Positions 15,441-47,756 of a stretch of DNA of 64,000 nucleotides are shown one piece after another; position 1 is the stretch's first letter, and every line of letters begins with the position of its first letter. The notes beneath the pieces are model-generated. The model ran no database searches. It had not been told where the DNA came from and saw nothing but the letters and a program-made list of their open reading frames with translations. A program made the position numbers and the translations under genes. This DNA comes from a virus, in the IMG/VR virus record IMGVR_UViG_3300027706_000269, positions 1-64,000 of that record. The stretch is one strand, 5' to 3'.

Positions 15441-16832
15441 ATGCTCAACGTCGACTACCGCAAGGTCGAGACGCTGATTCCGTACGCACGTAACCCGCGC
15501 ACGCATTCCGACGCGCAGGTGGCCAAGATCGCCGCGAGCATCGTCGAGTACGGCTGGACCAACCCGGTGCTGGTCGATGGCGACAACGGCGTCATCGCCG
15601 GGCATGGACGGCTCGCCGCCGCCCGAAAGCTCGGCCTCGAAGATGTGCCGGTGATCGAGCTGGGCCACTTGACGCCGGCGCAGAAGCGCGCCTACGTCAT
15701 CTCCGACAACCGCCTGGCCCTCGACGCTGGGTGGGATGAGGAACTGCTGGCGCTGGAGTTGGCTGAGCTGTCCGAGGCCGGCTACGACCTGGCGCTGACC
15801 GGATTCGACGAGTCCGAGATCGACGCGCTGCTCGCGCCCGAGCCGGCCGACGCCGAGTCGGACGCAGAATCGGAGGATGCGGCCGACGACGTGCCTGAGG
15901 CACCGGCCGTCCCGGTCTCCCGCACCGGTGACATCTGGGTACTCGGCAAGCACCGTCTCATCTGCGGTGATGCCACCGACGCGCAGGTGGTCGCCACGCT
16001 GATGCAAGGCGAGGCGGCCGCGTTGTGCTTCACCTCGCCGCCCTATGGCAACCAGCGCGATTACACCAGCGGCGGCATCGCCGACTGGGATGGTCTGATG
16101 CGCGGCGTGTTTGCCAGCCTGCCGATGGCCACAAGCGGCCAGGTGCTGGTCAACTTGGGTCTGATCCACCGCGACAACGAGGTCGTCCCGTACTGGGACG
16201 GCTGGCTCGCGTGGATGCGGACGCAGGGCTGGCGGCGCTTCGCCTGGTACGTGTGGGACCAGGGGCCCGGCATGCCGGGCGACTGGGCGGGCCGCTTCGC
16301 CCCGAGCTTTGAGTTCGTCTTCCACTTCAACCGAGCGAGCCGCAAGCCCAACAAGATCGTGCCCTGCAAGCACGCCGGCCAGGAGTCGCACCTGCGCGCC
16401 GATGGATCGTCGACCGCCATGCGCAGCAAGGATGGCGAGGTCGGAGGCTGGACCCATGCTGGCCAGCCGACGCAGGACACACGCATCCCCGACTCAGTGA
16501 TTCGCGTGATGCGCCACAAGGGCAAGATCGGCCAGGGGATCGACCACCCGGCCGTGTTCCCAGTGGCGCTGCCCGAGTTCGTCATCGAGGCGTACACGGA
16601 CCCCGGCGATCTCGTGTTCGAGCCGTTTGGTGGCAGCGGCACGACGATGCTGGCCGCCGAGCGCACCGGTCGGATCTGCCGCACCGTCGAGATCGCGCCC
16701 GAGTACGTGGACGTCGCCGTGCGCCGCTTCCGGCAAAACCATCCGGAGGTGCCGGTGACCCTGCTCGCGACCGGCCAGTCCTTCGAGGAGGTGGCGGCCC
16801 AGCGGCTGGCGCCGGAGGAGGTCGCGGCATGA
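15441..16832 (+). CDS. ParB-domain / DNA methyltransferase fusion 1 (463 aa)
   Basis: Phage DNA methyltransferase with an N-terminal ParB/Srx-like domain (NPRTHSDAQVAKIAASI, GVIAGHGRLAAARKLG, about residues 1-130), an acidic linker (about 130-160) and a C-terminal MTase: catalytic TSPPYGNQ and SAM-binding EPFGGSGTT near the end, the beta-class order. Probably modifies phage DNA to evade host restriction; the target base (N6-A or N4-C) is uncertain. The start at 15,441 is the first ATG in frame with the ParB domain; its SD is weak, and a start a few codons upstream is possible. Overlaps the paralogous next gene by 4 bp. Confidence 0.85.
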   Translation: MLNVDYRKVETLIPYARNPRTHSDAQVAKIAASIVEYGWTNPVLVDGDNGVIAGHGRLAAARKLGLEDVPVIELGHLTPAQKRAYVISDNRLALDAGWDEELLALELAELSEAGYDLALTGFDESEIDALLAPEPADAESDAESEDAADDVPEAPAVPVSRTGDIWVLGKHRLICGDATDAQVVATLMQGEAAALCFTSPPYGNQRDYTSGGIADWDGLMRGVFASLPMATSGQVLVNLGLIHRDNEVVPYWDGWLAWMRTQGWRRFAWYVWDQGPGMPGDWAGRFAPSFEFVFHFNRASRKPNKIVPCKHAGQESHLRADGSSTAMRSKDGEVGGWTHAGQPTQDTRIPDSVIRVMRHKGKIGQGIDHPAVFPVALPEFVIEAYTDPGDLVFEPFGGSGTTMLAAERTGRICRTVEIAPEYVDVAVRRFRQNHPEVPVTLLATGQSFEEVAAQRLAPEEVAA

Positions 16833-18082
16833 CGGCGTCCTGGCTGGCCGACAAGATCGAGCAGTGGCCGACGGCCAAGTTGCTGCCGTATGCGCGCAAT
16901 GCGCGGACGCACTCGGACGCGCAGGTCGCCCAGATCGCCGCGTCCATCGCCGAGTTCGGCTTCACGAACCCCATCCTCGCCGGAAGCGACGGGGTGATCG
17001 TCGCCGGGCACGGGCGTCTCGCGGCTGCGCAGAAGCTCGGGTTGGAGGTGGTCCCGGTCGTGGTCCTGGATCACCTGAGCCCAACGCAGCGCCGGGCGCT
17101 GGTGATCGCCGACAACCGCATCGCCGAGAACGCGGGCTGGGACGAGGCGATGTTGCGCATCGAACTGGAGGCCCTGCAGAGCGAAGGCTTTGACCTGGAC
17201 ATCACGGGCTTCGACGCTGATGCCTTGGCCGAGCTGATGGCCGGCGACGAGCCCGACGCCGAGGGCCAGACCGATGACGACGCGGTGCCCGAGGTCACCG
17301 AAACAGCAGTCTCGCGCCCGGGCGACATCTGGTTGCTCGGACACCACCGCCTGCTCTGCGGCGATGCGACGGTCGCCAACAGCTACGAACACCTGCTGGC
17401 CGGCGAGTCAGTGGACATGGTCTTCACCGATCCTCCCTACAACGTCAACTACGCCAACAGCGCAAAGGACAAGATGCGCGGCAAGGATCGCGCGATCCTG
17501 AACGACAACCTGGGTGACGGCTTCTACGACTTCCTGCTCGCCGCGCTGACGCCGACCATCGCCCAGTGCCGTGGCGCGATCTACGTGGCGATGTCCTCCA
17601 GCGAGCTTGACGTGCTGCAGGCCGCGTTCCGCGCCGCGGGCGGCCACTGGTCGACCTTCATCATCTGGGCGAAGAACACCTTTACGCTGGGTCGCGCGGA
17701 CTACCAGCGCCAGTACGAACCGATCCTGTACGGCTGGCCGGAGGGGGCGCAGCGTCACTGGTGCGGCGACCGTGACCAGGGCGACGTGTGGAGCATCAAG
17801 AAGCCGCAGAAGAACGACCTGCACCCGACCATGAAGCCGGTCGAGCTGGTCGAGCGCGCGATTCGCAATTCGAGCCGCCCGGGCAACGTGGTCCTGGACC
17901 CGTTTGGTGGCTCGGGCACGACACTCATCGCCGCCGAGAAGTCAGGGCGGCAGGCGCGGCTGATCGAGCTCGACCCCAAGTACGTCGACGTGATCGTGCG
18001 CCGTTGGCAGGACTGGACAGGAAAGCAAGCCGCCCGTGAGGGGGACGGTTTGTTGTTCCCTTCGGTGACGGCTCTGGGATAA
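16829..18082 (+). CDS. ParB-domain / DNA methyltransferase fusion 2 (417 aa)
   Basis: Tandem paralogue of the preceding gene. The ParB-like domain is clearly related (NARTHSDAQVAQIAASI, GVIVAGHGRLAAAQKLG). The MTase domain is divergent: catalytic motif TDPPYNVNY and SAM motif DPFGGSGTT, with a loop KKPQKNDLHPTMKP typical of beta-class N6-adenine/N4-cytosine enzymes. The two genes therefore probably methylate different sites. Translationally coupled to gene 1 (4-bp overlap). The C-terminus ends just before a convergent small gene at 18,106. Confidence 0.87.
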   Translation: MTASWLADKIEQWPTAKLLPYARNARTHSDAQVAQIAASIAEFGFTNPILAGSDGVIVAGHGRLAAAQKLGLEVVPVVVLDHLSPTQRRALVIADNRIAENAGWDEAMLRIELEALQSEGFDLDITGFDADALAELMAGDEPDAEGQTDDDAVPEVTETAVSRPGDIWLLGHHRLLCGDATVANSYEHLLAGESVDMVFTDPPYNVNYANSAKDKMRGKDRAILNDNLGDGFYDFLLAALTPTIAQCRGAIYVAMSSSELDVLQAAFRAAGGHWSTFIIWAKNTFTLGRADYQRQYEPILYGWPEGAQRHWCGDRDQGDVWSIKKPQKNDLHPTMKPVELVERAIRNSSRPGNVVLDPFGGSGTTLIAAEKSGRQARLIELDPKYVDVIVRRWQDWTGKQAAREGDGLLFPSVTALG

Positions 18083-44488: not shown

Positions 44489-45445
44489 GTGATGCGACAG
44501 ATTAAGAGTGCAGATGCAGTGACGATACTGCATAACGATGCGCCGAAAGTGATCGAAGAGATCAACGATTTCACATCGCAGACGTTCAAGACACGAGGGG
44601 GACGCCTAGGCAGTGGCATGGGTAGCCTGCTCGAAGCCCTGTGGGTCTATTACATGAACAAAACCCTCATGAATGAGGGTGGATTGGCACGGGAATGTGA
44701 ACTTGCGTGGATGCAAGATCACGAGCCCTCCGATTTTGCCTGCCTGCAAAGAGGGGCCGAATGGGAGCCTCGGAGTCGACGTGGCGAGTTGTTTCGTATC
44801 GAAGCCAAGTCCATGAATATTGGCGTAGACGAAGCCAAAGGACACTTCACAAACCTTGCCAAGGAAACGGCAGAGCATGATCAGCTTCTTGTGCTCATCT
44901 GGTCATGGACCGAGCTGGGAAATAATTATTCATGGCCAAGAATTCACGATTACTTCCTTGGCCCTTCGCTGCCGATTATCAGGGCGCGAGATCAGCTTCA
45001 CCTCGCGCGAGGAGGGTTGTTCGTTGATAGAAGAGAATGCCCTGATGGGTGTGCGCCAGAAGCATGTACACACGATGGAGAGCCACTAAACGCAGCAAGG
45101 AAGCGCGAGCGCCGATCAGGTCCGCAGTCATGCAAGCCAGCAAACGTCGAGTATGCTGCCAATTTTGGCGGCCTCGTGCGGATGCTGAAGACCGACAATG
45201 ATGCTGCGCGTTCGGTCTTTCGGAGACTGCGGAAGGCCGATGATGTGGTTCATGCCTATATATCCTTCATTCACACGCACTTTCCGTCCGAGGAGATCAA
45301 CCACTTTAAGAAAGCTGAATGGCAATCTGTGTTGAAATCCCTTGGGATCAAAGCTAACAATGTGACCGCCGCCGAAGCTAATAAACTGTTGCGGGAGCAT
45401 GTGCCCGACTACCAAGATCACCTGCGGAGATTATTCTATAGTTAG
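44489..45445 (+). CDS. Putative restriction endonuclease, PD-(D/E)XK type (318 aa)
   Basis: Predicted nuclease subunit of the RM cassette. PSD at residues 80-82, then E105-x-K107 in ELFRIEAKSMN, a PD-x(n)-(D/E)xK arrangement. Upstream is GSGMGSLLEALWVYYMNKTL (helical), downstream EAKGHFTN and a hydrophobic strand LLVLIWSWTE that continues the fold. There is no helicase domain, so it is not a canonical HsdR. Convergent with the S-subunit gene, with the stop codons overlapping. Codon usage is lower in GC than the phage genes. The family is not recognised; the nuclease call rests on motif plus neighbours. Confidence 0.65.
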   Translation: MMRQIKSADAVTILHNDAPKVIEEINDFTSQTFKTRGGRLGSGMGSLLEALWVYYMNKTLMNEGGLARECELAWMQDHEPSDFACLQRGAEWEPRSRRGELFRIEAKSMNIGVDEAKGHFTNLAKETAEHDQLLVLIWSWTELGNNYSWPRIHDYFLGPSLPIIRARDQLHLARGGLFVDRRECPDGCAPEACTHDGEPLNAARKRERRSGPQSCKPANVEYAANFGGLVRMLKTDNDAARSVFRRLRKADDVVHAYISFIHTHFPSEEINHFKKAEWQSVLKSLGIKANNVTAAEANKLLREHVPDYQDHLRRLFYS

Positions 45446-46140
45446 GTCGCCACCTCAATTTCGATGACCGGTGTTCCTGACGAGAGCGCAGCCAAGAGTC
45501 CTTTAGCCTGTTGTGCAGGAAGCGTATCCAAGCGCGAACGCAAGGCGATGATCTCTTGATCGATCTGGGCAAGCTGTTCAACCAGTTTTGCTTGCACATC
45601 GAGAGGTGGAACGGGAACTTCGATGTCGAGTAGATCCCGCGTTGACATGCGCGGCAGAGATGCGCCTACGGTGAACTTGCTTGCAAACTGTGTGACGAAT
45701 GACGAAGCGAGGATGTGTCGCAAATAGCGTGAGAGAACAACGTCTTTGCGTGGAGAAAGTACGATGAACTCGCCGGAACACATGCCTTCGGACACCGGGG
45801 GGTGTGCCAGATAGACTTTGTTTAACTCAGGGCGCAGACGTCCATAGAGAACGTCGCCGACCCGAAACGTCTTCGACCGAGACTTTATCGACGACGCAGG
45901 TCGTGGAGAGAATTCCACCAACTCTCCGGTCGTCGATCGGACGTTTTCGAGGCCCACGTAGACAATGGGCTCGCTCCCGTACTGCCGGGGGTCGACTGTG
46001 GAGCGGCGCTCGTCGGCCAACTCTTTCAAGGGACGCATCCGGTAAGCAGATTTCCCGGCGAACTTCGTCTCAGTGAAATAAGAAACCGTCCACCGATCAG
46101 CCCGAAACAGTTTTGCACTTTCGACTACCATCGTCCACAT
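45442..46140 (-). CDS. Half-size specificity subunit (HsdS-like, single TRD) (232 aa)
   Basis: DNA-recognition subunit with one target-recognition domain instead of two. The N-terminal TRD contains YVGLENVRSTTGEL, VGDVLYGRLRPELNKVY, GMCSGEFIVLSPR and LPRMSTRDLLDIEVPVPPLD. The C-terminal dimerisation helix is QAKLVEQLAQIDQEIIALRSRLDTL. Typical type I S proteins carry two TRDs in about 400 aa, so this one probably dimerises and recognises a palindromic or bipartite site. ATG at 46,140 has AGGAGG 7 bases upstream and overlaps the M stop (TGATG). Confidence 0.85.
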   Translation of the reverse strand: MWTMVVESAKLFRADRWTVSYFTETKFAGKSAYRMRPLKELADERRSTVDPRQYGSEPIVYVGLENVRSTTGELVEFSPRPASSIKSRSKTFRVGDVLYGRLRPELNKVYLAHPPVSEGMCSGEFIVLSPRKDVVLSRYLRHILASSFVTQFASKFTVGASLPRMSTRDLLDIEVPVPPLDVQAKLVEQLAQIDQEIIALRSRLDTLPAQQAKGLLAALSSGTPVIEIEVAT

Positions 46141-47756
46141 CACCAACCCTCCTTATCAATGAATGCCTTGAAGCGATCCGCAACCGCATTGAGGTTGCTT
46201 TCGCCGCACGTGCGGCCGCTGGCGTCATAGCCAATGGAATCAACATCGGCCAAAAAGATGTTGTAGTTACGTGTATACGTTTCACTAACCTCGTGCTTTC
46301 TGAGAATCAGAACGCTGGTCTTGATGTTTGCCCCGAAGGGGGAAAACGTCTCGATAGGGAGGCTAATGATTGCGCGAACACGTGCATGTCGTTCAATCCA
46401 ACTGCGAACTTTCGCGGTGTTTCGATTGCTCAATACACTATCGGGAAGGACGATGGCGAGGCGCCCTCCGTGGCGAAGTAGCTGGAGGCAACGTTCCAGA
46501 GCCACGATTTCTAGCGAGACTGTTGATCCGCATACTGTTGCAAGCTCAAATGGTCCAAGTTGTGTAAGGCTGTCACGCGGTAGATCTATGCCAAATGGCG
46601 GATTGGTCATCACGAGGTCGAACGTTTCGCGATAAAGGTCTGGGTAATTGGAGAACGGCAAGAGCGAATCGCTGCACCGGATGTTGCTATGCCCGTCGCC
46701 ATGTAGCCGCATGTCGGTCATGGCGATTCTGACCATACGATCGCTCTTCTCGATGCCGTGCAGCCGCGTGAAGGCAAACTCGTGGAACAGCTTGTCGGCC
46801 TTGGCGTGCATTCGTCGCACGTAATCGATAGCAGAGGTCAAGAAGTGGCCGGAGCCGCAGAATGGATCAATGATTAGCTCGCGAACGTTTGGCTGCATTA
46901 CCCTCACGATGAAGTCGATGACTTCTTTTGGTGTGAAGTACTGCCCCATTCCTGCGCGGATAGCTGGAGCTAGGACGTTTTGGAATGCGCGGCCCTTGAT
47001 ATCTACGGGTGATGCGGTCAGGTCGTGGTGTTGTAGGAGCTCAACTGCTCGAACGATGGCTGGACTTGATAGAAGCAATGGCTCACGAAAGACGCCACGG
47101 GAACGTTCATATGTCGGTATCTTATTGGAGAAAATTGCTCTGTCTTCATCGATCGCTCGCAGATAGAGCTGACGGATTTCGGCCGCGCATTCTTCGACCG
47201 ATCTGTAGCGTGAACGTTGGAATAAGAGTTCGCCCGTCTTAACGCTTTGCTCCTCATCGAAAAGCTTGGCGTAGATTAACTTGCAAATTTCGTCCAGTGC
47301 ATCGGGTGCGTGAAGTCCATCGATGTCTCGGAACGCGCTGTGCACTTCAAACAGTACGTTTTCAAGATTGCTTGTAAGGGGTTTGAGAGATTTAGGCTCA
47401 AGGCGATAAGCGGATGCCAGAATGTTTGGTTTCTCGAACGATGCGACGTAGTCGAAGTCGCCCGTGCGGAAACTGCGCCGGATGATCTTTGTGACTTGCC
47501 CTGTGGCGTCTAGCTGAATCCCTATGCTGGCAGTGGGCACGGAAAGGAGACACTTTCGAAGATGCGCGTCGGCATCCGGCGCAGCCCCCTTGGCAACTCC
47601 GCAGACTATGTACTTGGTCCCTCGGTCGTTGTGAACGACATAGACATCGTTGTCTGACTCTTGTGCGTAGCGGGAAATAACGTGGCCGCTGTCGGCTGGC
47701 AGCGAGAGCGCCGCAGCGATGAGTTGTTGAACCGTGGTGAGCAAGGGCCACTCCAT
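46140..47756 (-). CDS. N6-adenine DNA methyltransferase (HsdM-like) with nuclease-like N-terminus (538 aa)
   Basis: Gamma-class adenine methylase: FTPKEVIDFIVRVM entry (275-287), SAM motif DPFCGSG (297-303) and catalytic NPPF (385-388). The first about 110 residues look like an HsdR-N-type PD-(D/E)XK fold (DVYVVHNDRG, then a strand), but the place of the ExK motif reads VCGVAKG, with glycine where the catalytic Glu should be. It therefore looks inactivated, with the nuclease supplied by the separate gene at 44,489. Operonic with S. Confidence 0.85.
   Translation of the reverse strand: MEWPLLTTVQQLIAAALSLPADSGHVISRYAQESDNDVYVVHNDRGTKYIVCGVAKGAAPDADAHLRKCLLSVPTASIGIQLDATGQVTKIIRRSFRTGDFDYVASFEKPNILASAYRLEPKSLKPLTSNLENVLFEVHSAFRDIDGLHAPDALDEICKLIYAKLFDEEQSVKTGELLFQRSRYRSVEECAAEIRQLYLRAIDEDRAIFSNKIPTYERSRGVFREPLLLSSPAIVRAVELLQHHDLTASPVDIKGRAFQNVLAPAIRAGMGQYFTPKEVIDFIVRVMQPNVRELIIDPFCGSGHFLTSAIDYVRRMHAKADKLFHEFAFTRLHGIEKSDRMVRIAMTDMRLHGDGHSNIRCSDSLLPFSNYPDLYRETFDLVMTNPPFGIDLPRDSLTQLGPFELATVCGSTVSLEIVALERCLQLLRHGGRLAIVLPDSVLSNRNTAKVRSWIERHARVRAIISLPIETFSPFGANIKTSVLILRKHEVSETYTRNYNIFLADVDSIGYDASGRTCGESNLNAVADRFKAFIDKEGW

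Follow-up and report, generated by a model that had tools for sequence, protein, structure and literature searches.

The window, a stretch of 64,000 nucleotides from a viral record (IMG/VR IMGVR_UViG_3300027706_000269), carries at 44489–47756 a cassette of three open reading frames, R, S and M. R lies on the plus strand (44489–45445), starts at a GTG or at the next ATG, and is predicted to encode a stand-alone type II restriction enzyme of 318 aa (PADLOC model PDLC03408, REase_II, E 2.6e-163), with the codons of its candidate PD-(D/E)XK active site, D82 to K107, at 44732–44809. S, on the minus strand (45442–46146), is a half-size specificity subunit of 234 aa with one TRD (PDLC03590, Specificity_II, E 2.6e-78), a C-terminal helix region and, by Pfam, a single PF01420 (Methylase_S) domain; its start is likely the ATG at 46140. 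M, also on the minus strand (46140–47756), is a 538-aa N6-adenine methyltransferase subunit (PDLC03218, MTase_II, E 5e-242; PF02384, N6_Mtase, E 3.4e-36), and its residues 1–105 (47442–47756, minus strand) form a vestigial PD-(D/E)XK domain of HSDR_N_2-like type. R and S are convergent, with 3′ ends that overlap by four bases. The cassette region has a GC content of 0.53–0.55 and a third-position GC of 0.56–0.61, where the phage has about 0.67 and 0.81–0.94, respectively. An earlier reading made from the sequence only had described a single-TRD S, a separate and convergently encoded 318-aa protein (PSD...EAK) with no helicase, and a GC content below that of the phage; the length of S and its one Methylase_S match, the R reading frame and its residues, the absence of PF04851 and the GC values all agree with that description.

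The gene set can be compared with several known kinds of restriction system. A type I filing was rejected, since HsdR with its ATP-dependent helicase motor is missing (no PF04851 restriction helicase occurs anywhere in the 91.8-kb record) and S has one TRD rather than two. A type IIB filing was likewise rejected, since the N-terminal nuclease domain fused to the methylase is there but its catalytic E and K are replaced. The features of the ‘Type 1 1/2’ systems, namely a separate HsdM-like M, a single-TRD S, a stand-alone R and no helicase, are all present. This kind is represented by AhdI, PshAI and BsaBI, with a stand-alone R, an HsdM-like M and a half-size S (PMC3874165, PMC2878638), and the same layout also appears in PMC6158711. 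The AhdI kind resembles the cassette in an M of about 60 kDa, a single-TRD S of about 25 kDa, a separate R and the lack of a helicase; the likeness is one of layout, the AhdI proteins being compared by description only. EcoKI of type I shares an HsdM-like methylase and the one-base overlap of hsdM and hsdS (PMC3510504), whereas the cassette has no HsdR, no helicase motor and an S with one TRD. The PADLOC models for type II restriction, specificity and methyltransferase proteins each cover R, S and M nearly full length, so the families as such are already on record as type II; PDLC03408, PDLC03590 and PDLC03218 make no mention of a dead nuclease domain.

The same convergent cassette, in gene order and orientation, was found in two further genomes, G390 and G718, whose R proteins are 69% and 80% identical to that of the window. 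The M stop and the S start overlap by one base in 3 of 3 cassettes, as TGATG in the window and G718 and as TAATG in G390. Around the G718 cassette, the surroundings look, as read from the open reading frames, like ordinary chromosomal genes with an integrase fragment. Against G718, dN/dS is 0.048 for R, 0.11 for S and 0.029 for the catalytic part of M, values that are rough because synonymous sites are near saturation; on these ratios, all three are under purifying selection. The S TRD is 57–76% identical among the R-bearing cassettes and 18% identical to that of L031, the prophage locus with the closest intact relative of M. Such conservation is expected if one and the same site has to be recognised by R and by S, and the S of L031 would, judged by this divergence, read a different target.

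R carries P80-S81-D82 and E105-A-K107, and thus the conserved D..(D/E)xK residues expected of a PD-(D/E)XK nuclease. D82, E105 and K107 are invariant across five R homologues, two of which are cyanophage proteins about 35% identical to R, and these residues together with the helix glutamate E49 are the candidates for the active site. Searches of Pfam, NCBIfam and the PDB gave no meaningful relative of R, and no solved or curated nuclease relative was found; a lysine racemase match (E 0.018 and 0.17), which falls outside the active-site region, was put down to chance. A structure model of R built from two sequences reached a pLDDT of 42, and at that low confidence the predicted strand order is compatible with alpha-beta-beta-beta-alpha-beta. 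When profiles were compared, D82, E105 and K107 of R fell in register with D..ExK of the M nuclease domains in an alignment that was not significant, and no similarity between R and S was detected. R therefore looks recruited rather than duplicated; the evidence is weak because PD-(D/E)XK nucleases diverge beyond recognition, and a common origin of R and the old nuclease of M has no detectable support in the sequences.

The R family is rare: it was found in two of the 398 genomes sampled for the phylum and in two of the 399 sampled for the order, Vulcaniibacterium gelatinicum being included in both counts. Plasmids, phages, E. coli genomes, viral contigs and the phylum and order samples yielded, apart from near-identical copies, only the R proteins of G390 and G718 and single genes of cyanophages. 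In T4-like cyanophages, a solitary R homologue of 233–250 aa, about 35% identical and with D82, E105 and K107 kept, is found at L006:5974-6675 (Synechococcus phage WH25-B; also QB2 and S-M1) and at L021:3358-4110, and the WH25-B gene sits directly behind psbA and psbD. The last ~57 residues of R occur in the cassette proteins and are missing from these single-gene homologues. No N6 methylase is present in the cyanophage records that carry R homologues, which suggests that the R family is able to work without S; the cyanophage protein may be a nuclease that derives from a restriction enzyme family and serves in homing or in competition between phages.

The closest solved structure to M is RM.BsaXI (PDB 8w0p), which matches from residue 144 on with E 2.3e-28. 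It has been reported that BsaXI cuts with an active nuclease domain, and that alanine at E73, D90, E105 or K107 abolishes cleavage (PMC11997821). Unlike the cassette, BsaXI has a two-TRD S and no separate R, and the N-terminus of M corresponds to the place of its nuclease domain by way of L031. The M protein of L031 (614 aa) is about 42–45% identical to the cassette M and retains an intact nuclease site (QADITI..IIETKK; PF13588, E 3.7e-20), and it matches RM.BsaXI across both nuclease and methylase (E 2.7e-36). In the methylase tree, L031 and the R-bearing clade are joined with support 1.0. The gene order of L031 is M, half-size S and then an apparent tyrosine integrase; like the cassette, this two-gene system has a half-size S, and unlike it, an intact D..ETK and neither R nor helicase in its record, which is 27 kb long and maybe a fragment. 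A close DNA relative of L031 was sought in E. coli and none was found.

In most relatives of M from viral contigs and plasmids, the N-terminus is an HSDR_N_2 domain (PF13588, E down to 6e-24), and about 35 of them retain D..(E/D)xK in the alignment. In the R-bearing cassettes, the ExK position reads GVA (window), AFA (G390) and AIA (G718), while the first acidic position is D in the window (D37) and E in both G390 and G718. Around the active site, the alignment of L031 (PFLIIETKK) with the window (KYIVCGVAK) is ungapped, so E is replaced by G53 and K by A55, as had been proposed from the G-V-A-K at this position. Local alignment scores between the L031 nuclease domain and the cassette M N-termini exceed those of every shuffle, with z of 11.5 for the window and 9.2 and 5.7 for the other two. 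In addition, the M N-terminus precedes a homologous connector and occupies the same protein position as the L031 nuclease domain. Structure prediction, a check named in the sequence-only reading, agrees with this: the AlphaFold2 model of the M N-terminus (pLDDT 73) has the order alpha-beta-beta-beta-alpha-beta, in which D37 falls at strand 2 and G53/A55 where strand 3 ends. With this model, Foldseek gave weak matches (best E 0.03), which include the restriction enzymes NhoI and EcoT38I, an EcoR124I complex chain, EndoMS and a Holliday junction resolvase. Pfam has no match to residues 1–120 of M in the window or in G718, and the profile of the N-terminus aligns with intact domains in register and without significance. 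By alignment score, position and predicted order together, the N-terminus of M is a homologue of the nuclease domain that type IIB fusion proteins like BsaXI carry.

The domain has changed faster than the rest of the protein. Between the window and G390, the methylase part is 76.5% identical and the N-terminus 28%, whereas pairs with intact domains whose methylase parts are 74–78% identical retain 65–68% in the N-terminus, and L063/L067, in which E is lost, retain 63% at a methylase identity of 77%. Against G718, dN/dS is 0.19 for M residues 1–90 and 0.029 from residue 121 on. Both measures indicate that the domain is relaxed, yet not free of constraint, and it is closed by a conserved RTGDFD stretch. 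The R family adjoins only the three ExK-less M genes of its clade and stands beside none of the other relatives compared, most of which have S genes of about 450–520 aa next to them, against 234 aa here. That a dead nuclease domain in M always comes with this R was rejected as a general rule: L045/L057 and L063/L067 lack the site and have no R of this family alongside, so site loss alone does not imply R. Two of the relatives are of separate note. The phage contig L032:681-2236 has an M reduced to what corresponds to residues 251–538 (52% identical), with the N-terminal part missing, together with a half-size S (TRD 42% identical) directly ahead of a terminase-like gene. At L057:2751-6958, a tandem pair of N6-methylase-like genes lies near an endolysin resembling that of the window, with no adjacent R of this family; the protein of the first gene begins with a nuclease-like domain without E and K.

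The best reading of these sequences is that cutting passed from M to a separate gene. It draws on the homology of the N-terminus, the loss of E and K in 3 of 3 R-bearing cassettes, the R-less record of L031 and the fast change of the domain, within a comparison set of three R-bearing cassettes and one close intact relative. With a probability of roughly 0.7, the cassette is a phage-borne type II system of the ‘Type 1 1/2’ kind, whose M derives from a BsaXI-like fusion and in which R, a predicted separate nuclease, took over cutting. The AhdI methylase is an M2S2 assembly with the symmetric target GACN5GTC (PMC2878638); by analogy, an M2S2 methyltransferase would most likely assemble here from two copies each of M and the half-size S, and would mark a symmetric split target in both of its halves. 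R, as a separate PD-(D/E)XK-type nuclease, would most likely recognise the unmarked target by itself and cut it as a homodimer, and the lysogen would presumably benefit. An ancestor resembling L031 or BsaXI, with nuclease and methylase fused, would have lost its nuclease site, before or after R arrived, and R would have taken over cutting, and the N-terminal domain of M would have been retained as a fold minus the catalytic E and K. The sequence-only reading had proposed a type II/I hybrid whose nuclease activity left M for a new gene; the move is supported, and the layout is not new.

One alternative is that R has no DNA recognition of its own and is a motor-less subunit that docks on M2S2, perhaps on the dead domain, so that cutting and marking would alike take their specificity from S, comparable to a type I enzyme devoid of its motor. 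The constraint left on the dead domain (dN/dS 0.19) would fit this, and the C-terminal residues of R that the cyanophage homologues lack could be the docking part. However, R homologues stand in phage records that have no N6 methylase, and a system with a shared S would not need the similarity of the S recognition domain seen among R-bearing cassettes. AhdI-type R enzymes, moreover, act alone. Docking is thus unlikely, though it fares best among the alternatives to an independent R.

It is more doubtful still that the cassette no longer works, with R silent or inactive and the phage drawing use at most from M-S methylation. R is a candidate nuclease by sequence, with a fold model of low pLDDT, and the decayed domain of M is a precedent for nuclease loss at this very locus; against this, R is as constrained as the methylase, has no stops, keeps its candidate catalytic residues invariant and is retained in 3 of 3 cassettes. 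That the M N-terminus is an unrelated domain or a replacement that was never a nuclease is very improbable, since the missing Pfam match, the weak structure matches and the non-significant profile comparison are outweighed by the shuffle scores, the ungapped active site, the shared position before the connector and the predicted core order with D37 and G53/A55 in place.

If R did take over cutting from M, the cassette is probably a preserved intermediate on the way from type IIB to a type II system of separate enzymes, in which an independent nuclease, with no detectable sign of being a copy of the old one, took over, a claim held less firmly than the transfer itself. Explicit models exist for the origin of separate restriction enzymes and methylases from combined ones, and Bower et al. 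(2018) proposed nuclease loss from the methylase as a step to type IIP, with R arising by gene duplication (PMC6158711). The present case supports the first step of that model and gives a duplication-derived R no support. As the layout is already known, the novelty appears to be the vestigial nuclease N-terminus of M, which the available portions of PMC3874165 and PMC2878638 do not describe for methylases of the AhdI kind. A search limited to the open-access literature turned up no methylase of this sort with a dead type IIB nuclease domain, a negative of little weight. If the reading is true, the cassette captures in nature a changeover between two kinds of restriction system, and a dead domain still in place, a replacement nuclease and a relative in the earlier state open this transition to bench testing. 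Questions that become approachable are whether the dead domain is dispensable, whether R depends on M-S, and whether the adoption of R froze the specificity of S. To our knowledge, no ‘Type 1 1/2’ methylase with such a domain has been described.

The 91.8-kb record consists of two tandem related phages (1–48400, and 48476 onward to 91816) with stretches that are 69–88% identical. The cassette is placed after the endolysin of the first phage, with a serine integrase gene heading the next phage just beyond it, and the second phage ends shortly past its own endolysin without a cassette. The segment 42892–48171, which contains the lysis genes and R-S-M, is shared at 99.83% identity with a prophage of V. 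gelatinicum, whose adjoining genes match those of the second phage at about 82%; the right end of this 5.3-kb segment is a probable att core, followed by an apparent tyrosine integrase gene. Such identity amid different flanks indicates that the segment is mobile phage cargo that was recently exchanged. R is only 69% identical between cassettes, so the R-S-M combination is old and, judged by this divergence, older than the segment exchange. The earlier proposal that the cassette was recently acquired as a moron therefore holds for the phage segment and fails for the gene combination. Elsewhere in the window, 16829–18082 holds a gene that matches ParB-like nuclease families towards its N-terminus and phage DNA methyltransferase families towards its C-terminus (phrog_498, phrog_67), and this stretch has a counterpart in the second phage.
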